Assembly (NCBI RefSeq): GCF_030209445.1
Contig: NZ_JARVSD010000010.1
Span: forward strand, 124,001 to 188,000
Length of the DNA stretch: 64,000 bases
Direction: 5' to 3'
Source of the DNA: Promicromonospora sp. MEB111
GTDB taxonomy: Bacteria > Actinomycetota > Actinomycetes > Actinomycetales > Cellulomonadaceae
Position 1 is the first letter of the stretch; each line of letters begins with the position of its first letter. The translations under genes were made by a program, and so were the position numbers. The notes beneath the pieces are model-generated. The model was not told the origin of the DNA. It did not search any database and was given only the letters and a program-made list of their open reading frames with translations. Shown piece by piece: positions 48,930-56,476 of this stretch.

Positions 48930-49069
48930 CGGACGATCATCACACCCCGCAGGGGTACGTGGGGGGAGATCTCGTGGTGGGCGTGCCGTGGTCGTGGAGG
49001 CTTGGCGGGGATTCGAAATACTGTGCCAAGCGGATGCGCCGAACCCCTGGTTCCTGCGAGAATGGGACC

Positions 49070-49315
49070 ATGATCACGGGGGAACCCCAGTCCACCAGTG
49101 ACTCGACCGATTCGGTCCCGACCGATCTCATCGACGAGTCGAACGCCTCCTACGCCCACATCGCGCCGCCGGTCGCCCGGCGCGTCGCCACCCGCCGCGG
49201 CCTGCTCGGCGGCGGTGACGTCTCCAAGGCCCCGCGCAATCTCGCCGGCTGCGAGCTCGACCCGATCTCGGGCGCCTCGAGCGGCGTGTCCTGGGACGAC
49301 CCCGACGAGCTCTGA
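49070..49315 (+). CDS. Small acidic protein of unknown function
   Basis: An 81-residue reading frame with the composition of a real protein: a Ser/Thr/Asp-rich start, the central NASYAHIAPPVARRVATRRG and the end SGASSGVSWDDPDEL. No known domain is recognised and there is no membrane segment. The ATG lies six bases after GAGAAT, possibly an extended -10 (TGCGAGAAT), which would make the mRNA leaderless. Convergent with the next small gene 21 bp away. Confidence 0.6.
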   Translation: MITGEPQSTSDSTDSVPTDLIDESNASYAHIAPPVARRVATRRGLLGGGDVSKAPRNLAGCELDPISGASSGVSWDDPDEL

Positions 49316-49336
49316 CCGCCCCTGAGGGGTGCCGCG

Positions 49337-49612
49337 TCAGCGGGGCAGCCGCGCCGGGTCCACCGGGATGAGGCGCGGCATCCCCGCGGGCGCCACCTCG
49401 CTCAGCGCCAGGTAGCGAGCCTCCGCGCGGTGCAGCCGGATGTGCTCGTCGAGCGACCACTGCGGCCCGTTGGTCAGCGTCATGCCGCAGGCGCAGTCGA
49501 TCTCCTCCCGGTCGCCCGGCAGGTGCCGCACCTGCCCCACGGTGGTGTGGGAGGCGCGGGCGTCCGCCTTGGCGCGGTGCATCACGGCGCTCACGGGAGC
49601 ATGTTCGGTCAC
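49337..49612 (-). CDS. Small protein with a possible CxC-x(n)-HxxxH zinc site
   Basis: A 91-residue protein. Its centre reads EIDCACGMTLTNGPQWSLDE then HIRLHRAEA, i.e. two cysteines and two histidines spaced like a small zinc-binding finger. It could bind nucleic acid or metal, but the family is not recognised. GTG 49612 is six bases after TAGGGT (49619-49624), supporting a leaderless start and a real gene. Confidence 0.6.
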   Translation of the reverse strand: MTEHAPVSAVMHRAKADARASHTTVGQVRHLPGDREEIDCACGMTLTNGPQWSLDEHIRLHRAEARYLALSEVAPAGMPRLIPVDPARLPR

Positions 49613-49643
49613 GCCCCCACCCTAAGCGCCCCCGTCCCGAGCG

Positions 49644-49708
49644 TTGTCGAGTGCCGGGTGTGTGCGGTCCGGAAGGCCTTGGGGCCGCACATACCCGGCA
49701 CTCGACGA
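49644..49708 (-). terminator. Long hairpin downstream of the metB-like gene
   Basis: TCGAGTGCCGGGT-G-TGTGCGG (from 49647) pairs with CCGCACA-T-ACCCGGCACTCGA (to 49705), with flanking G-U pairs extending the stem to roughly 26 bp and an 11-base loop GGAAGGCCTTG. It lies just after the stop of the cystathionine gamma-synthase gene on the minus strand, ahead of the promoter of the small zinc-site gene. Confidence 0.75.
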
Positions 49709-49713
49709 AGGGG

Positions 49714-50877
49714 TCAGATGCGGTCCAGGGCCTGCAGGACGTCGTCGAGGAGGTCCGTCACGTCCTCCAGGCCCACCGACAGGCGGACGATCGACGGCGG
49801 CACCTCGGCCTCCGTGCCCCGCACCGACGCGTGGGTCATCTCGCTCGGGTAGTTGACCAGCGACTCCACGCCGCCGAGCGACTCGGCCAGGAGGAACACC
49901 CTGGTCGACTCGGCGAACGTGCGCGCCGCCGCCTCGCCGCCGGCGAGGTCCAGCGAGATCATGCCGCCGAACCGCGTCATCTGGTGGGCGGCGATCTTGT
50001 GGCCGGGGTGGTCGGGCAGGCCCGGGTACAGCACGCGCGCGACGGCGGGGTGGTGCACCAGGCGCTCGGCGAGGGTCTGGGCCGTCTCGGAGTGCCGCTG
50101 CATGCGCACCGACAGCGTCTTGATGCCGCGCGTGGTGAGGAACGCGTCGAACGGGCTGGAGACCGCGCCCGCGGCGAACTGCACGTAGTGCACCTGCTCG
50201 GCGAGCTCGTCGGCCCCGTCCTTCACGACGACGGCGCCGCCGACGACGTCCGAGTGCCCGCCGAGGTACTTGGTCGTGGAGTGCACCACGACGTCGGCGC
50301 CGAGGTCGAGGGGGCGCTGCAGGGCGGGGGAGGCGAACGTGTTGTCGACCACCAGGAGCAGGCCGTTCTCGTGCGCGAGCTCGGCCAGCGCGGGGATGTC
50401 GCTGATCTTCATCAGCGGGTTCGACGGCGTCTCGACCCACAGCACCTTGGACTCCGGCCGGATCGCGGCGCGCACGGCGTCGAGGTCGGCCGTGTCCACG
50501 GTCGTGTGCGCCACGCCGGCGCGGCCGTGGACGGTGCGGATCAGGCGGTGCGTGCCGCCGTAGACGTCGTTCGGCACGAGCACGTGGTCCCCGGGGGCGA
50601 CCACGGCGCGCAGGAGCGCGTCCTCGGCGGCCAGGCCGGAGGCGAACGAGATGCCGTGCGCGCCGCCCTCGATCGCCGCGAGCTGCTCCTCCAGGGCCGT
50701 GCGGGTGGGGTTGCCGCCGCGCGAGTACTCGTACCCGCCGCGCAGCCCCCCGATGCCGTCCTGGGCGTAGGTGGAGGTGACGTGGATCGCGGGGATCGCG
50801 TCGCCGGTGGTCGGGTCGGGGTGCTGCCCCGCGTGGATGGCGAGCGTGTCGAAACGGCTCGGTCGGGCGTCGGTCAT
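49714..50877 (-). CDS. Cystathionine gamma-synthase/lyase-type PLP enzyme
   Basis: A 387-residue Cys/Met-metabolism fold-type I enzyme. The PLP lysine is K203 in HSTTKYLGGHSD; GYEYSRGGNPTRTALEEQLA, YGGTHRL and ETPSNPLMKISDI are also typical. Synthase and lyase differ little in sequence. Together with the upstream cystathionine beta-synthase, a lyase role in reverse transsulfuration (homocysteine to cysteine) is the better reading. ATG 50877 is preceded by GAAGAGAG. It is 31 bp behind cbs, so both are probably under the poly-cysteine leader. Confidence 0.88.
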   Translation of the reverse strand: MTDARPSRFDTLAIHAGQHPDPTTGDAIPAIHVTSTYAQDGIGGLRGGYEYSRGGNPTRTALEEQLAAIEGGAHGISFASGLAAEDALLRAVVAPGDHVLVPNDVYGGTHRLIRTVHGRAGVAHTTVDTADLDAVRAAIRPESKVLWVETPSNPLMKISDIPALAELAHENGLLLVVDNTFASPALQRPLDLGADVVVHSTTKYLGGHSDVVGGAVVVKDGADELAEQVHYVQFAAGAVSSPFDAFLTTRGIKTLSVRMQRHSETAQTLAERLVHHPAVARVLYPGLPDHPGHKIAAHQMTRFGGMISLDLAGGEAAARTFAESTRVFLLAESLGGVESLVNYPSEMTHASVRGTEAEVPPSIVRLSVGLEDVTDLLDDVLQALDRI

Positions 50878-50908
50878 GGCTGTCTCTCTTCGAAGGTTGC
50901 GTGCGGGG

Positions 50909-52276
50909 TCAGACCGCGAGGTAGTCGAGCAGGTCGGAGCGGGAGACCACGCCGAGGGCCTTGCCGCCGTCGGTCACGAGCAGTGCGGTCTCGTCGGCCA
51001 GGGCCGCGCGCAGCGTCCCGACCGGCTCGTTGACGCCGATGAGCTGCAGGGGCCGGCCGATCAGGCCGCCCACCTCGTCCGACAGGTTCGCCTTGCCGGC
51101 GAACACCCCGTCGAGCAGCTCGTCCTCGTGCACGGCGCCGGCGATCTCGCCGAGCACCACCGGCGGTTCCGCGGTGAGCACGAGCAGCTGGGAGACGCCG
51201 GACCGGGTCATCCGGTCGATCGCCTCCCGCACCGTGTCGGTCTGGTGCACGTAGAGCAGGGGCGGGGTGCGGTCGGCCTTGGCGGCGAGCACGTCCGCGA
51301 CGGTGTGGTCCTCGATGGCGGGCGCGAAGCCGTAGGACCGCATCCAGGTGTCGTTGAAGATCTTGCCGAGGTAGCCGCGGCCGCCGTCGGGCAGCAGGAC
51401 CACCACGACGTCGTCGGCGCTCAGGTCGCGGGCGGCCCGCAGGGCCGCGACCACGGCCATGCCGCTGGAGCCGCCCACGAGGATGCCCTCCTCGCGCGCC
51501 AGCCTCCGCGTCATCGCGAACGACTCGGCGTCGCTGACCGCGATGATCTCGTGCGGCACGCTCGGGTCGTACGCGGACGGCCAGAAGTCCTCGCCCACGC
51601 CCTCGACCAGGTAGGGGCGGCCGGTGCCGCCCGAGTAGACCGAGCCCTCGGGGTCGGCGCCGACGATGCGTACCGTGTCGCCCGAGACCTCCCGCAGGTA
51701 GCGGCCGGTCCCGGTGATGGTGCCGCCCGTGCCGACGCCGGCGACGAAGTGCGTCACGCGGCCGTCGGTGTCCCGCCAGATCTCCGGACCCGTGGTCTCG
51801 TAGTGCGAGCGCGGGCCGTTCGGGTTGGAGTACTGGTCGGGCTTGAAGGCACCCGGGATCTCGCGCACCAGCCGGTCGCTCACCGAGTAGTACGACTCGG
51901 GGCTGTCGGGCGCCACCGCCGTCGGCGTGACGACGACCTCGGCGCCGTAGGCGGTCAGGACGTTGCGCTTGTCCTCGCCCACCTTGTCGGGCAGCACGAA
52001 GACGCAGCGGTAACCACGCTGCTGCGCCACCAGGGCGAGGCCGACGCCGGTGTTGCCCGACGTGGGCTCCACGATGGTGCCGCCCGGCAGCAGCTTGCCC
52101 TCGCGCTCGGCAGCGTCGATGATCCGGCCCGCGATGCGGTCCTTGGAGGAACCGCCGGGGTTGAGGTACTCGAGCTTGACGAGCACGGTCGCGCTGGTGA
52201 CGCCCTCGGTCACGTGGCTGAGCCGGACCAGGGGGGTGTTGCCGACGAGGTCAACGACAGAATTGACGTACTGCAC
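50909..52276 (-). CDS. cbs: Cystathionine beta-synthase
   Basis: A 455-residue PLP enzyme with the cofactor lysine K45 in LNPGGSSKDRIAGRIID, the EPTSGNTGVGLALVAQQRGY loop, GVGTGGTITGTGRYL and a C-terminal pair of CBS domains (about 325-455). It has no N-terminal heme domain. It condenses serine and homocysteine. The CBS pair may bind an adenosyl effector. GTG 52276 has GGAAGAG seven bases upstream, and this ribosome binding site can pair with a cysteine-rich leader reading frame 60-80 bases upstream (see the uORF). Confidence 0.93.
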   Translation of the reverse strand: MQYVNSVVDLVGNTPLVRLSHVTEGVTSATVLVKLEYLNPGGSSKDRIAGRIIDAAEREGKLLPGGTIVEPTSGNTGVGLALVAQQRGYRCVFVLPDKVGEDKRNVLTAYGAEVVVTPTAVAPDSPESYYSVSDRLVREIPGAFKPDQYSNPNGPRSHYETTGPEIWRDTDGRVTHFVAGVGTGGTITGTGRYLREVSGDTVRIVGADPEGSVYSGGTGRPYLVEGVGEDFWPSAYDPSVPHEIIAVSDAESFAMTRRLAREEGILVGGSSGMAVVAALRAARDLSADDVVVVLLPDGGRGYLGKIFNDTWMRSYGFAPAIEDHTVADVLAAKADRTPPLLYVHQTDTVREAIDRMTRSGVSQLLVLTAEPPVVLGEIAGAVHEDELLDGVFAGKANLSDEVGGLIGRPLQLIGVNEPVGTLRAALADETALLVTDGGKALGVVSRSDLLDYLAV

Positions 52277-52282
52277 CTGTTT

Positions 52283-52363
52283 CTCTTCCTGTTCTGCGCG
52301 TGCGACGGCGCGCGCGGGGGACTGACGGACCGGGGTGGGTGGTCAGTGACAGCAACAGGAGAG
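52283..52363 (-). promoter_or_regulatory. Complementary segments able to sequester the cbs ribosome binding site
   Basis: On the minus strand CTCTCCTGTT (52363-52354), which encodes the Leu-Ser-Cys part of the leader peptide, is complementary to AACAGGAAGAG (52293-52283), the ribosome binding site of cbs, with a single bulged A. A ribosome paused on the following Cys codons would cover the first segment and free the second. This is the expected design for translational control by cysteine supply. Confidence 0.6.
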
Positions 52364-52375
52364 GTGTGCGAGCAC
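52343..52375 (-). CDS. Leaderless poly-cysteine leader peptide (MLAHLSCCCH)
   Basis: Ten codons, GTG to TGA, encode MLAHLSCCCH with three consecutive cysteine codons (TGT TGC TGT). A TACAGT hexamer at 52382-52387 ends six bases before the GTG, so the peptide would be read from the very 5' end of the mRNA. Leaderless poly-cysteine uORFs acting as cysteine-responsive attenuators are described in mycobacteria. Position directly ahead of a cystathionine beta-synthase/gamma-lyase-type pair makes biological sense. It is too short for normal gene callers. Confidence 0.75.
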   Translation of the reverse strand: MLAHLSCCCH

Positions 52376-52381
52376 GCCGCA

Positions 52382-52387
52382 ACTGTA
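52382..52387 (-). promoter_or_regulatory. -10 hexamer of the cbs operon leader
   Basis: TACAGT on the minus strand, six bases ahead of the leader-peptide GTG. It sits just after the DUF2277 stop (52402). No convincing -35 element is visible. Confidence 0.6.
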
Positions 52388-52401
52388 GCGGTGCGAGCCG
52401 C

Positions 52402-52725
52402 TCAGTGCGAGTGCGCGATGCCCAGCTCGTGCATCCGCTCATGCTCCTCACGTTCCTTGATGCGCTGCGCGATGCGCGCCTGGACCTCCGCCCGGCGCAG
52501 CGGCGGCACGGTCTTGGGCGGCTGACGGCGTTCGGGCAGCTCGTCGAGCAGACGCGTCACGATGTCCGCGATCTCTGCCGTGGCCCGCTCCACCGGGTCC
52601 CGGGTGGCGTCGCTCACCTTCGTCACGCCCGTGACCTTGCGCACGAACTGCAGCGCGGCGGCGGTGATCTCCTCGTCGGTCGCGGCCGGTTCGAGGCCGC
52701 GCAGCGTGGTGATGTTTCGGCACAT
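52402..52725 (-). CDS. DUF2277 family protein
   Basis: A 107-residue protein with the clear family start MCRNITTLRGLEPAATDEEI then AALQFVRKVTGVTKVSDATR, a helical middle and a basic C-terminus ending GIAHSH. The function is unknown; the conserved CRNI near the N-terminus is the most striking feature. ATG 52725 lies six bases after TACCGT (52732-52737), a leaderless start located inside the 3' part of the overlapping MFS reading frame. Confidence 0.88.
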   Translation of the reverse strand: MCRNITTLRGLEPAATDEEITAAALQFVRKVTGVTKVSDATRDPVERATAEIADIVTRLLDELPERRQPPKTVPPLRRAEVQARIAQRIKEREEHERMHELGIAHSH

Positions 52726-54257
52726 GCTCCGACGGTACGCCGGGCGGCGCCCGCGGGGGAGGGCGCCGTCCGGCGTACGGCTGGGGCCTGACCGGCGGGC
52801 CAGTGCCCGCCGGCCACCTCGCGCAGCCCCTTGACGGGGACGGTCGCCGCGATGGCCGCGGCCACCACGGCCATGCCGCAGCCGAGCAGCAGGGCGACCC
52901 GGAAGCCGCCCTCGGTGGGCAGGGTGTGCTCGCCGAACGTGGTGCTCATCCGGGCCAGCACCACGCCGATGACGGCGGCCGACACCGAGGTGCCGATGGA
53001 GCGCATGAGCGCGTTGAACCCGTTCGCGGCGGCCTTCTCGGAGGCCGGCACGGAGCCCAGGATGATCGCGGGCAGCGCGCCGTAGGCGAAGCCGACGCCG
53101 GCCGCCGCGACGAACGCCGTGAGCGACAGGCCCACGAGCGTGTCCATGAACAGCGTGGACAGGCCGTAGCCGAGCGCCATGACCAGGGCGCCCAGGACGA
53201 GCGTCGTCTTGGGCCCGCGGGCGCGGGTGATCTGCGCGCCCACGGGCGACATGAGGGTCATCGCGATGCCCGACGGCGCCATCCACAGGCCCATCTGCAG
53301 CATGGACTGGCCGAGCCCGAACCCGGTCGCGGCCGGCGCCTGCATGAGCTGGGGCAGGATCAGGGACTGGGCGTACATGGCGAACCCGATCATGATCGAG
53401 GCCAGGTTGGTGAGCAGCACGGCGGGGCGCGCGGTGGTGCGCAGGTCGACCAGCGCGGCGGGCGTGCGCAGCTCCCACCAGCCCCAGGCCAGGAGCACGA
53501 CGACGGAGCCGCCGAACAGGCCGAGCACGAGCGGGCTCGCCCAGCCCCACTCGGCGCCCTTGGAGACCGCCAGCAGCAGGGCCACGAGACCCGCGGCCAG
53601 GCCGAGCACGCCCACGTAGTCGAACGGCGTGCGCACCCGGGCGGGCGCGGCCGGGGCGGGGATCGCCCGCCAGACGACGACGCCGACCACGACGGCGCAG
53701 ACCGCGATGAGCCAGAACAGGATGCGCCAGCTCGCGAACTCGGCGACGGCGGCGGCGAACGGCAGGCCGAGGGCGCCGCCGATGCCGAGCGACGAGCTCA
53801 TCAGGGAGATGGCGCCGGCGGTGCGCTCCTTGGGCAGCAGGTCGTGCAGCATGCTGATGCCGAGCGGGATGAACCCGGTGGCCAGGCCCTGCAGGCCGCG
53901 GCCGGTGACCATGACGGGGACGGTCGTGGCCACGGCGCAGACCGCGGACCCGAGGGCCAGCGGCACCAGCGAGATCAGGATCATCTTCTTCTTGCCGTAC
54001 AGGTCGCCCAGCCGCCCCGAGACCGGGGTGCAGATGGCGCCGACCAGCAGCGTGACCGTGATGATCCAGGACGTGTCCGACGCCGGGGCGTCGAAGATGG
54101 TCGGCAGCGACGCGACGATCGGGACCACGAGGGTCTGGGTCATCGCGACCACGATGCCGCCGATCGCGAGGATGGCGACGATGCGGTTGGGGTGGACTAC
54201 GGGTGCGGTGGCCGATCCGTCAGCCGGCGGCGCGGGGCGGGACGCGGTGGTCGTCAC
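52623..54257 (-). CDS. MFS drug:H+ antiporter (14-helix type) with unusual C-terminal extension
   Basis: A 544-residue transporter of the EmrB/QacA-like branch: VPIVASLPTIF, the loop-2/3 motif GRLGDLYGKKKMIL, RGLQGLATGFIPLGISML and about 13-14 helices. The recognisable protein ends near GLREVAGGHWPAG; a further 70 residues, rich in Arg, Pro, Ser and Ala, run on to 52623 and overlap DUF2277 by 103 bp in another frame, which suggests a lost stop codon. GTG 54257 has GAGGAGA upstream. It is divergent from a MarR gene and shares its operator pair, so drug-responsive control is likely. Confidence 0.87.
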   Translation of the reverse strand: MTTTASRPAPPADGSATAPVVHPNRIVAILAIGGIVVAMTQTLVVPIVASLPTIFDAPASDTSWIITVTLLVGAICTPVSGRLGDLYGKKKMILISLVPLALGSAVCAVATTVPVMVTGRGLQGLATGFIPLGISMLHDLLPKERTAGAISLMSSSLGIGGALGLPFAAAVAEFASWRILFWLIAVCAVVVGVVVWRAIPAPAAPARVRTPFDYVGVLGLAAGLVALLLAVSKGAEWGWASPLVLGLFGGSVVVLLAWGWWELRTPAALVDLRTTARPAVLLTNLASIMIGFAMYAQSLILPQLMQAPAATGFGLGQSMLQMGLWMAPSGIAMTLMSPVGAQITRARGPKTTLVLGALVMALGYGLSTLFMDTLVGLSLTAFVAAAGVGFAYGALPAIILGSVPASEKAAANGFNALMRSIGTSVSAAVIGVVLARMSTTFGEHTLPTEGGFRVALLLGCGMAVVAAAIAATVPVKGLREVAGGHWPAGQAPAVRRTAPSPAGAARRTVGACAETSPRCAASNRPRPTRRSPPPRCSSCARSRA

Positions 54258-54277
54258 GAGTCTCCTCGAAAGATTGC

Positions 54278-54292
54278 TGTGCATCATGCACA
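54278..54292. promoter_or_regulatory. MarR-type operator 1
   Basis: TGTGCA-TCA-TGCACA, a perfect inverted repeat about 20 bp upstream of the MFS start. Together with the similar site at 54322 it fits binding by the MarR-family dimer encoded next door. Confidence 0.7.
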
Positions 54293-54321
54293 TTGGGGTT
54301 CGGTCTCAGAATGCCATATCT

Positions 54322-54336
54322 TGTGCATGATGCATA
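54322..54336. promoter_or_regulatory. MarR-type operator 2
   Basis: TGTGCA-TGA-TGCATA, one mismatch from the perfect palindrome at 54278-54292. Centres are 44 bp apart, about four helical turns, so two dimers could bind the same face of the DNA and control both divergent genes. Confidence 0.65.
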
Positions 54337-54381
54337 GACGCGAGCCGGTGCGCGAGACCGCGTGCGCGACCGTCCGTACGG

Positions 54382-54405
54382 GACCGTCTGTGCGACCGTC
54401 TGTGC
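54382..54405 (+). repeat. Tandem 12-bp repeat in the marR leader
   Basis: GACCGTCTGTGC occurs twice in direct succession, with related GACCG blocks just before and after. It lies in the 5' untranslated region of the MarR gene and looks like slippage; a regulatory role is not evident. Confidence 0.6.
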
Positions 54406-54426
54406 GAGACCGGAGGTATGACGACG

Positions 54427-54885
54427 ATGACGTCCCCGATCGACGAGATCGAGTACGAGGGCATGCTGTTCGGGCGGCACCTGGCCGCGCTCCCCGCGGG
54501 GCGCACGCGGCGCAAGGGCGGGCAGCTCGACCAGAGCGCGTACACCCTGCTCAGCCTGCTCGACGCCGGCGGCCCCGCCAGCCTCGCCGAGCTCGCGGAA
54601 GCCACCGGCCTGGACGTCTCGACGCTGAACCGGCAGACGGCCGCCCTGCGGCGCTCCGGCCTCGCCGAGCGCTTCGAGGACCCCGACGGCGGGCAGGCGC
54701 GCAAGCTCCGCCTCTCCGCCGAGGGCAGCCGGCTCCTGGGCGAGGAGCGCACCGCCAGCAGGGCGCTCCTCGCCGACCTGCTGCACGACTGGTCCGAGCA
54801 GGACCGGGCCCGGTTCGGCGAGCTGCTGGGCCGCTACAACCGCGTCATCGAGGACCGCTCGGGCCGCCACTGGCCGCGCCCGTGA
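54427..54885 (+). CDS. MarR-family transcriptional regulator
   Basis: A 152-residue winged-helix regulator: helical dimer segments at both ends, HTH SLAELAEATGLDVSTLNRQT and the wing LAERFEDPDGGQARKLRLSA. MarR dimers usually repress until a small ligand binds; here the obvious target is the divergent MFS exporter and its own gene through two TGTGCA palindromes. GGAGG at 54412-54416 is only one base from ATG 54418, so ATG 54427 is the more probable start. Confidence 0.87.
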   Translation: MTSPIDEIEYEGMLFGRHLAALPAGRTRRKGGQLDQSAYTLLSLLDAGGPASLAELAEATGLDVSTLNRQTAALRRSGLAERFEDPDGGQARKLRLSAEGSRLLGEERTASRALLADLLHDWSEQDRARFGELLGRYNRVIEDRSGRHWPRP

Positions 54886-55029
54886 CGACGGCCCGGCCCC
54901 CTGCCACGACGGCCCGGCGTCGACCACAGCAGTTGCAGCCACCGGACCCGGCTTGCTGGCAGCACCCGCTGTGCTCGACCACGAGAATCGTCGTGGCGGG
55001 ACGGGTCGGTCGTGGGGCAGGGTGAGCAC

Positions 55030-55602
55030 ATGCAGCTTTCTGTCGAGACGCCGCCCGACGCCGGCACCCGGCCCCCGACCACCGTGCGCGAGGCGGGCGC
55101 CGACGACTGGCCCGCCATCTGGCCGATCGTGCGCGAGGTCGTCCGCGCGGCCGACACGTTCGCCTACGAGCCCACGATGGGCGAGGCCGACGCGCGCGCC
55201 GGATGGCTGGAGGCCCCGCGGCGCGTCGTCGTCGCCGTGCGCGACGGCGTCGTGGTCGGCACCGCGAACATGTACCCCAACCGGCCGGGGCCGGGCAGCC
55301 ACGTCGCGTCGGGCAGCATCATGGTCGACCGCGCGGTGCGCGGCACCGGCGCGGGCCGGGCCCTCGTCGAGGACATGATCGCCTGGGCGGCCCGCGAGGG
55401 GTTCGCCGCGATCCAGTTCAACGCGGTGGTCGACACGAACACCGCCGCCGTCCACCTGTACGAGAGCCTCGGCTTCGTCACCCTCGGCATCGCGCCCGGT
55501 GCGTTCCGGCACCCCGAGCGGGGCGACGTGGGCCTGCGGATCATGTGGCGCGACCTGAGCGACGTGCCCGCCGCGGGGACCGGTCCCGAGGACGAGGCCT
55601 GA
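55030..55602 (+). CDS. GNAT N-acetyltransferase (phosphinothricin acetyltransferase-like)
   Basis: A 190-residue GNAT protein with TVREAGADDWPAIWPIVREV, the acetyl-CoA loop MVDRAVRGTGAGRALVEDMI and the motif B segment NTAAVHLYESLGF. This matches small-molecule acetyltransferases of the PAT/L-amino acid type; the substrate is unknown. ATG 55030 is preferred to GTG 55012 because GGTGAG precedes it. The stop is one base from the ATG of the flavin oxidoreductase, so the two form an operon. Confidence 0.83.
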   Translation: MQLSVETPPDAGTRPPTTVREAGADDWPAIWPIVREVVRAADTFAYEPTMGEADARAGWLEAPRRVVVAVRDGVVVGTANMYPNRPGPGSHVASGSIMVDRAVRGTGAGRALVEDMIAWAAREGFAAIQFNAVVDTNTAAVHLYESLGFVTLGIAPGAFRHPERGDVGLRIMWRDLSDVPAAGTGPEDEA

Positions 55603-55603
55603 G

Positions 55604-56476
55604 ATGCGCTGCTCCGTGAACGTCCCCAACTTCGGCGACTTCGCCGACGCCCGCGCCGTCGCGACCGTGGCCCGCGCCGCGGAGGAGGCCGGCTGGGACG
55701 GCCTGTTCGTCTGGGACCACGTGGTGCACCGCAAGGAGATGCGCCGCGGCCAGCCGTTCGGCGACCCGTGGATGCTGCTCACCGCCGCGGCGCTCGCGAC
55801 CTCGACGATCCGGCTCGGCACCCTCGTCACGCCCGTGGCGCGGCGCCGGCCCGAGCAGCTCGCGCGGCAGGTCGCGACGCTGGACGCCGTCAGCGGCGGC
55901 CGCGTCGTCTTCGGCGCCGGCCTGGGCGGGCCCGTCGAGGACGAGTTCGGCAGCTTCGGCGACGAGACCGACCCCGTGGTGCTCGCCCAGAAGCTCGACG
56001 AGGGGCTCGGTCTGCTCGCCCGCTACTGGGCGGGGGAGCGCGTCGACCACGACGGGCCGCACTACCGGGTGCGCGACGTCGAGATCCTCCCGGCCACGGT
56101 GCAGCAGCCCCGCCCGCCGATCTGGGTCGGCGGCTTCTGGCCCGCGCGCCGACCGTTCCGGCGCGCCGCGCGGTGGGACGGCGTCGTGCCCCTGTTCGCG
56201 TCCGGGCACGGCCGGCCGCCCACGCCCGACGAGGTCCGGGACGTGACGGCGTACGTCGCGGAGCACCGGACGGCGGAGGGCCCGGCCGACGTCGCCCGTC
56301 CGTTCGACGTCGTCGTGGGCGGGCTGACGACGCCGGAGGCGGCGGCCGACGTCGTGGGCCCGCTGGCCGCCGCCGGGGCGACGTGGTGGGACGAGCGCGG
56401 GCTGTACGAGTCGCCCGACCTGTACTCCCTGCCGGCCGTGCTGCGCCGGGTCGAGGCGGGGCCGCCCCAGCTCTGA
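55604..56476 (+). CDS. LLM-class flavin-dependent oxidoreductase
   Basis: A 290-residue luciferase-like TIM-barrel enzyme: EEAGWDGLFVWDHVV, STIRLGTLVTPVARRRPEQL, ATLDAVSGGRVVFGAGLG and PPIWVGGFWPARRPFRRAAR. Such enzymes use FMN or F420; the cofactor is not clear from sequence. It follows the GNAT gene with a one-base gap. Convergent with the VOC gene, 6 bp away. Confidence 0.87.
   Translation: MRCSVNVPNFGDFADARAVATVARAAEEAGWDGLFVWDHVVHRKEMRRGQPFGDPWMLLTAAALATSTIRLGTLVTPVARRRPEQLARQVATLDAVSGGRVVFGAGLGGPVEDEFGSFGDETDPVVLAQKLDEGLGLLARYWAGERVDHDGPHYRVRDVEILPATVQQPRPPIWVGGFWPARRPFRRAARWDGVVPLFASGHGRPPTPDEVRDVTAYVAEHRTAEGPADVARPFDVVVGGLTTPEAAADVVGPLAAAGATWWDERGLYESPDLYSLPAVLRRVEAGPPQL

Follow-up and report, generated by a model that had tools for sequence, protein, structure and literature searches.

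Upstream of the cystathionine beta-synthase gene (cbs) of a Promicromonospora genome lies a ten-codon open reading frame with three adjacent cysteine codons. Does this frame sense cysteine on behalf of the genes behind it, and if so, how would the signal reach them? A preliminary description proposed that a ribosome stalling at the Cys codons exposes the cbs ribosome-binding site (RBS). We examined this proposal in the window (the whole 64-kb stretch of DNA analysed) and in a broad sample of cbs loci. We think it fairly likely that the leader of the cbs–metB operon is operated by the ribosome and responds to cysteine.

The cbs–metB Operon and Its Upstream ORF

All features described here lie on the minus strand. 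The gene at 50909..52276 encodes a 455-aa cystathionine beta-synthase (NCBIfam TIGR01137, 592 bits against a cut-off of 510; Pfam PALP and CBS). A metB-type gene of the cystathionine gamma-synthase/lyase family (49714..50877; NCBIfam NF005871, which bears the name cystathionine gamma-synthase, 622 bits against a cut-off of 513; Pfam PF01053) begins 31 nt after it, and the two likely share one operon. These matches agree with the preliminary description, which had named a cystathionine gamma-lyase-type gene together with cbs. Two enzymes of these kinds can convert homocysteine to cysteine by reverse transsulfuration. The closest named match to the window's cbs, among the matches listed, belongs to Promicromonospora thailandica (L034, 96%); upstream of its cbs the sequence is identical to that in another genome of the window's genus (L008), which identifies this genus as Promicromonospora.

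A −10-like hexamer, TACAGT (52382..52387), stands 6 nt (TGCGGC, 52381-52376) 5′ of a leaderless-type upstream ORF (uORF; 52343..52375). This ten-codon frame, GTGCTCGCACACCTCTCCTGTTGCTGTCACTGA (52375-52343), runs from GTG to TGA and reads (f)M/V-LAHLSCCCH, its start codon being GTG. Codons 7–9 of the 10 are the adjacent Cys codons TGT TGC TGT (52349..52357), the putative sensor codons, and 66 nt separate the TGA from the cbs GTG at 52276. Hexamer, six-base spacer and ten-codon frame with three Cys codons are all present as first described. A DUF2277 gene (52402..52725; Pfam PF10041) ends just upstream of the predicted promoter and is context rather than, as we see it, part of a switch. The position of TACAGT 6 nt before the GTG implies a transcript predicted to begin at that codon. 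A sigma-70 consensus scan of 52250-52460 gave no promoter of the strict TTGACA/TATAAT type, so the −10 assignment rests on its conservation. The 64-kb window, part of contig 5 of a 6.2-Mb genome, holds no tRNA gene.

Conservation of the uORF Upstream of cbs

Loci were drawn from cbs protein searches of the genome itself and its relatives (the best 30 loci, representing some of the relatives that have cbs) and of named genomes (the best 80 of 562 candidates). With the cysK-like locus L002 excluded and L034 a duplicate of L008, this gave 109 distinct among 110 cbs loci, from each of which we took 400 nt upstream (96 nt for L070). We scanned these for TANNNT followed after 5–8 nt by ATG or GTG opening an ORF of at most 45 codons that contains two adjacent cysteines (CC). 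The pattern occurs upstream of cbs in 29/110 loci (28/109 distinct, among the matches listed), amounting to 29 matches in 43,696 sense-strand bases before cbs in the 110 loci listed, and has no match in the other 1,056,386 strand-bases of the same loci. On both strands of the window the scan finds the cbs uORF alone.

The 28 distinct matches comprise 11 Promicromonospora loci and 17 further loci with adjacent Cys codons. The uORF is present in all 11 Promicromonospora cbs loci examined, with TGT TGC TGT unchanged throughout their alignment, and it also precedes cbs in Microbacteriaceae, Ruaniaceae and other lineages. Three further loci carry uORFs with a CxC arrangement, which shows that adjacency of the Cys codons is not required and brings the total to 31 uORF loci among those listed. 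Their peptides are VFRLTCRCR (L043), VPVHSSCRCRR (L053) and VLPVTCPCRCR (L076). The distance from TANNNT to the uORF is 6 or 7 nt in 31/31 uORF loci, though 5–8 nt were permitted, and the gap between uORF stop and cbs is at least 60 nt. Outside the Cys run the peptides vary (VLAPLSCCCR, VNISRSCCRR, MVLCTRLCCC, VSVTCCCQLCA and others). The least typical scan match, at L071, has 20 codons and lies 310 nt upstream.

Two members of the genus (G002 and G004) lack a cbs of this kind; their only match is weaker and cysK-like. In G004 the DUF2277 gene is directly followed by TACTCT and, 7 nt further on, by a GTG frame (L141), so that the cbs module is missing from that spot.

Codon Choice at the Putative Sensor Codons

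Cysteine is written TGT at 68/87 positions in the 31 uORFs (CxC uORFs included), compared with 2/34 in the first 450 codons of the cbs genes of the same loci, where NNY codons as a whole end in T in 103/2,223 cases. Within the Promicromonospora uORFs every other NNY codon ends in C (51/51; T, 0/51), and in the 20 other uORF loci Cys is TGT in 46/54 cases with the remaining NNY codons ending in T in 21/92. The bias toward T is thus strongest at the sensor codons, which suggests selection on the codon and not on the residue alone. In our model, pairing with the RBS (see below) accounts for the Promicromonospora run up to its second Cys codon; the third (TGT) has an unpaired wobble base there, so pairing is not the whole explanation, and slow wobble decoding is likely an additional cause. 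The TGT bias is a stronger argument than wobble invariance, which is weak as proof of RNA constraint because two-fold codons are invariant in 84/93 cases in these cbs genes.

Conservation and this extreme codon choice strongly support the uORF before cbs as a leaderless-type poly-Cys frame. The sensor half of the original reading is, at the level of sequence, well supported.

Predicted Structure of the Leader

How might stalling at the Cys codons be passed on to cbs? The preliminary description noted complementarity, with one bulge, between a segment at the Cys codons and the Shine-Dalgarno (SD) region of cbs. The minimum free energy (MFE) fold of 52255-52374 forms this pairing, bulge included (z = −2.46; 2/200 shuffles equally stable). 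In it CTCTCCTGTT, which begins at 52363, pairs with AACAGGAAGAG, directly upstream of the cbs GTG (52276), over the RBS; the best fold extends this to CTCTCCTGTT-GCTG with CAG-AACAGGAAGAG and joins the first uORF bases to the cbs start region. We delimit an anti-SD arm, CTCTCCTGTTGCTG (52350..52363), overlapping the Leu-Ser-Cys-Cys-Cys codons and recovered in the MFE fold, the per-locus folds and the alignment, and its partner, the RBS arm CAGAACAGGAAGAG (52283..52296), with an SD-like AGGA at 52290-52287 (folds and RNAalifold). For an outer 5′ arm at the uORF start, GTGCTCGCAC (52366..52375), the predicted partner is the region of the cbs start codon, GGTGCAGTAC (52268..52277; folds), with a register of the last pairs that differs between per-locus folds and RNAalifold.

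Two hairpins are predicted in the linker. Hairpin 1 (ACTGAC...GTCAGT, 52321..52347; folds) has a variable loop and a mostly kept stem, with two pairs broken or gapped in 1–2 of the 11 Promicromonospora loci. Hairpin 2 (GCGCGC..., 52298..52315; RNAalifold) changes from G-C to A-U at columns 65-82 and 71-76, in 2/11 loci each.

Folding pairs the SD to the uORF with a probability of 0.75–0.95 in 11/11 Promicromonospora loci. In the alignment of these loci the linker is divergent, but hardly a base changes in the Cys arm or the RBS arm. RNAalifold gives 33 pairs, of which 2 change on both sides, both in a linker hairpin; in the key helix it finds no covariation among the 11 loci (covariation term +0.15, no support), and because this helix hardly varies within Promicromonospora, it permits no covariation test of the switch. 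Of the two outcomes foreseen for an alignment of the leader, conserved Cys codons are thus found in Promicromonospora, and compensatory changes in the key helix are not.

Blocking a ribosome footprint at each of the three Cys codons raises the unpaired probability of the window's SD from 0.13 to 0.38, 0.47 and 0.82. The rise is smaller elsewhere (L011, 0.05 to about 0.3) and absent in L059 and L082. The SD–uORF pairing probability reaches at least 0.5 in 10/20 non-Promicromonospora uORF loci and is at most 0.09 in L059, L082, L071, L089 and L043. We also asked how each uORF pairs with its own RBS and with those of other groups. As isolated duplexes from 12 groups, cognate pairs beat non-cognate ones (P = 0.010), with no cognate advantage in many lineages other than Promicromonospora (e.g., L016, L035, L041, L089, L071). 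When uORFs were swapped in context, the test over the 12 groups was negative (P = 0.29; P = 0.51 without Promicromonospora), again with no cognate advantage in L059, L082, L071, L089 and L043. Universal cognate uORF–RBS pairing across lineages is therefore unsupported by the swap test and, in part, by the duplex test. The switch as first proposed keeps the predicted hiding of the SD in 11/11 Promicromonospora loci and the duplex result in its favor, set against the negative swap test; we regard the first reading as partly supported, and an SD switch in Promicromonospora as plausible and specific there, though sequence does not prove it.

Proposed Mechanism and Alternative Readings

In the mechanism we favor, transcription would begin at the uORF GTG or within one base of it, and the uORF would undergo leaderless translation. 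As long as Cys-tRNA is plentiful, the ribosome would pass TGT TGC TGT and depart, after which the anti-SD arm could pair with the RBS arm and the uORF start with the cbs start codon, a fold that would hide the cbs RBS. With scarce Cys-tRNA, the ribosome would wait on the Cys codons and cover the anti-SD arm; the SD would then be exposed and cbs (and metB) translated, and the operon's pathway would lead from homocysteine and serine through cystathionine to cysteine. In this scheme we infer the transcription start, the translation of the uORF, the response to cysteine and control at translation rather than through Rho, whereas the leader's anatomy, its conservation, the codon bias and the predicted structure are shown by the analysis above. 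Canestrari and colleagues are said to have described stalled ribosomes that block structures sequestering an RBS.

Among other readings, the likeliest also lets the uORF sense cysteine and places the output in Rho-dependent termination within the linker, instead of or besides SD sequestration. Ample cysteine would expose the untranslated linker to Rho, and stalling of a ribosome at the Cys codons would change access to it. The linker is C-rich, a consensus scan of 52250-52460 found no intrinsic terminator (hairpin plus U tract), RBS pairing is not universal across lineages, and Seliverstov et al. (2005, PMC1262725), in their passages on these leaders, proposed Rho for the cbs leader of Bifidobacterium longum and for cys leaders of mycobacteria and P. 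acnes. We nevertheless consider this unlikely, given the specific RBS helix predicted in 11/11 Promicromonospora loci; the 2005 authors rated their own Rho-site prediction weak in the passage concerned (PMC1262725), and later papers, where they mention the experimentally studied mycobacterial system, term it attenuation of translation. A search of 49000-56000 against Rfam at gathering score gave no match to a riboswitch, T-box or other family.

The pairing could also be incidental, with cysteine sensed through translational coupling or re-initiation, or through a generic block by a structured GC-rich leader, and no dedicated anti-SD. When the leader is shuffled and the RBS kept, 6 to 64 of 100 shuffles (median 21) are as closed as the natural Promicromonospora leaders, whose closure is thus not unusual: at most 5/100 are as closed in 7/20 other uORF loci and in 0/11 Promicromonospora loci. 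Poly-Cys uORFs of other groups also pair fairly well with Promicromonospora RBSs, with duplex means of −16.5 to −21.5 kcal/mol and in-context means of 0.42–0.61 (cognate, 0.51–0.76). Against this, cognate Promicromonospora duplexes reach −24.9 to −42.5 kcal/mol where the same uORFs average only −13.8 to −16.1 kcal/mol with the RBSs of other groups, and a gap of at least 60 nt from the uORF stop to cbs speaks against simple coupling. We judge incidental pairing rather improbable.

A trans-acting peptide, for instance a metal- or redox-binding CCCH peptide, would account for the recurrent Cys-rich ends (CCCH, CCRR, CCCR), but the residues outside the Cys run differ by lineage while the uORF's placement with respect to cbs and its distance from the −10 are kept, which makes this reading very improbable. 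A chance Cys-rich ORF without function, conceivable for a frame of only ten codons, is scarcely credible and is rejected by the control scan (29 matches in 43.7 kb upstream of cbs versus 0 in 1.06 Mb), by its occurrence in 11/11 genus members having cbs and by the TGT codon bias.

Two Apparent Promoter States of cbs

Homologous loci without the Cys run, which the preliminary description said would refute its reading, do exist and make up most of the 110; many of them have a leaderless-looking cbs. Among 78 distinct loci without the uORF (including L070, with 96 nt upstream only), 42 of those listed have a TANNNT starting 11–15 nt before the cbs start codon. At exactly −12/−13 there are 37 TANNNT matches over the 78 loci versus 0.1 expected from the rate beyond −60, and between −66 and the cbs start there are none in the 31 uORF loci. 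An SD-like motif occurs in 29/31 uORF loci, 3/42 loci with leaderless-type cbs and 24/36 of the rest (P = 1e-14, Fisher's exact test, uORF versus leaderless-type, not corrected for relatedness). With a −10 just before cbs and the SD mostly missing, cbs itself looks leaderless in these 42/78 loci and so in many relatives. The leaderless-type loci are L018, L024 and 40 between L047 and L113. Adjacency of metB was considered as a mark of the uORF loci and rejected: among the loci listed metB adjoins cbs in 31/31 uORF loci and 18/36 others, and it does so in 41/42 loci with leaderless-type cbs, so it is not specific to the uORF.

On a quick cbs tree the two promoter states need at least seven changes. 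Agromyces humi (L036), which the tree makes the sister of L037, lacks both uORF and linker, and its TAGGCT (the hexamer of L038; L037 has TAGTCT) stands shortly before the RBS ACACGAGGAATGAACACGGC, the same as in L037. The simple reading of this sequence, from a locus on a short contig, is that the attenuator was lost.

The cbs protein tree nests Promicromonospora among Microbacteriaceae (Agromyces and others) and sets it apart from its family's other genera. Keeping the 20 rows of the family together is rejected (approximately unbiased, AU, test, P = 0.00033; quick tree, with the group named after the tree had been seen). Of 13 other same-family genera having such a cbs, 9 were compared; none of the nine has the uORF, and 1/9 has metB within the flank covered. 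The cbs–metB-plus-leader module was likely acquired horizontally, as this protein tree suggests. Two records, Vibrio cholerae 35D (L093) and Sporosarcina beigongshangi (L094), place their cbs beside Arthrobacter in the tree and are probably contamination or mislabelling.

One broader reading, which we hold tentatively and rate a little short of even, is that in actinobacteria the cbs–metB promoter is an evolutionary switch with two states, between which lineages move. In the first state a −10 would lie 6–7 nt before a leaderless cbs with no SD and no such attenuation; in the second the same kind of promoter would drive a poly-Cys sensor ORF, followed by an SD-led cbs whose RBS can be hidden. 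The module would travel with cbs, spreading by horizontal transfer, and its codons would be tuned to UGU as a rare and wobble-read codon. The contrast between leaderless-type and uORF-led cbs, as read from these sequences, is the freshest part of the analysis: in close relatives it offers a natural experiment on the gain and loss of amino-acid control.

Comparison with Known Attenuation Systems

In the mycobacterial type of control, several cysteine loci per genome would share one architecture (a "ribulon"). Twenty 20-kb stretches of the same genome, amounting to 800,000 strand-bases, gave no further leaderless-type CC ORF; seven of them surround cysK-like, PAPS reductase (PF01507) and NMT1-family loci, and thirteen served as background. 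There was likewise none in ten further loci and eight own-genome loci (L143-L150), the latter overlapping the 20-kb stretches in part; together with the window, about 0.5 of 6.2 Mb was covered, so a wider set may exist. Removing the −10 requirement yields a few CC-containing frames in 3/10 loci (L003, L114, L119). On C30 a sulfite reductase (PF01077) adjoins the PAPS reductase (PF01507).

The cbs leader resembles classical trp-type attenuators in having a leader peptide rich in the regulating amino acid, and differs from them in having no terminator hairpin with a U tract. The LEU element of actinobacterial leuA differs in its leucine codons and pseudoknot (Seliverstov et al. 2005, PMC1262725, passages on this element); evidence cited in the discussion of that paper indicates that Leu codon mutations are without influence on its regulation.

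Closer at hand, Seliverstov et al. (2005, PMC1262725) predicted poly-Cys leaders before the cbs gene of Bifidobacterium longum and before cys operons. As described there, those leaders share with ours a short ORF, a Cys run near its stop, a position upstream of cbs or a cys operon and no terminator. Their account in the passages on these leaders found no further attenuator element, left the mode unknown and suggested Rho, whereas our analysis predicts a defined helix with the cbs RBS and records both the leaderless-type spacing of the promoter and the bias toward TGT. A concrete, if predicted, RBS-hiding structure thus becomes available for a class of cbs leader predicted in 2005 without a mechanism.

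The nearest parallel lies in the mycobacteria. Shell et al. (2015, PMC4633059, in the section concerned) describe leaderless mRNAs whose conserved Cys-rich uORFs precede cysA2, Rv0485 and nirA, and poly-Cys ORFs of M. smegmatis regulate downstream genes by cysteine-dependent attenuation, according to the statements of PMC9031893, PMC9094748 and PMC13236596 citing Canestrari et al. 2020; PMC13236596 classes the mechanism as translation attenuation. The preliminary description had already named leaderless poly-Cys uORFs as controlling mycobacterial operons. Like the mycobacterial ORFs as described in those texts, the Promicromonospora element is a leaderless-type uORF with contiguous Cys codons, here near its end, ahead of cysteine-metabolism genes, and it would be the first ORF of the probable operon; by its sequence it fits with the leaderless polycysteine uORF attenuators. 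For the mycobacterial ORFs those texts report cysteine-dependent attenuation, whereas for Promicromonospora the response is one we infer from sequence. Poly-Cys leaders and mycobacterial leaderless attenuators being already known, this is not a new kind of control. Among the matches listed in the open-licence literature, we found none that treats a cbs uORF from Promicromonospora or Microbacteriaceae. Unlike cysA2, Rv0485 and nirA, the mycobacterial loci named in those passages, the target here would be cbs–metB, and leaderless poly-Cys attenuation would thereby extend from mycobacteria to the reverse-transsulfuration operon of other, non-mycobacterial actinobacterial families.
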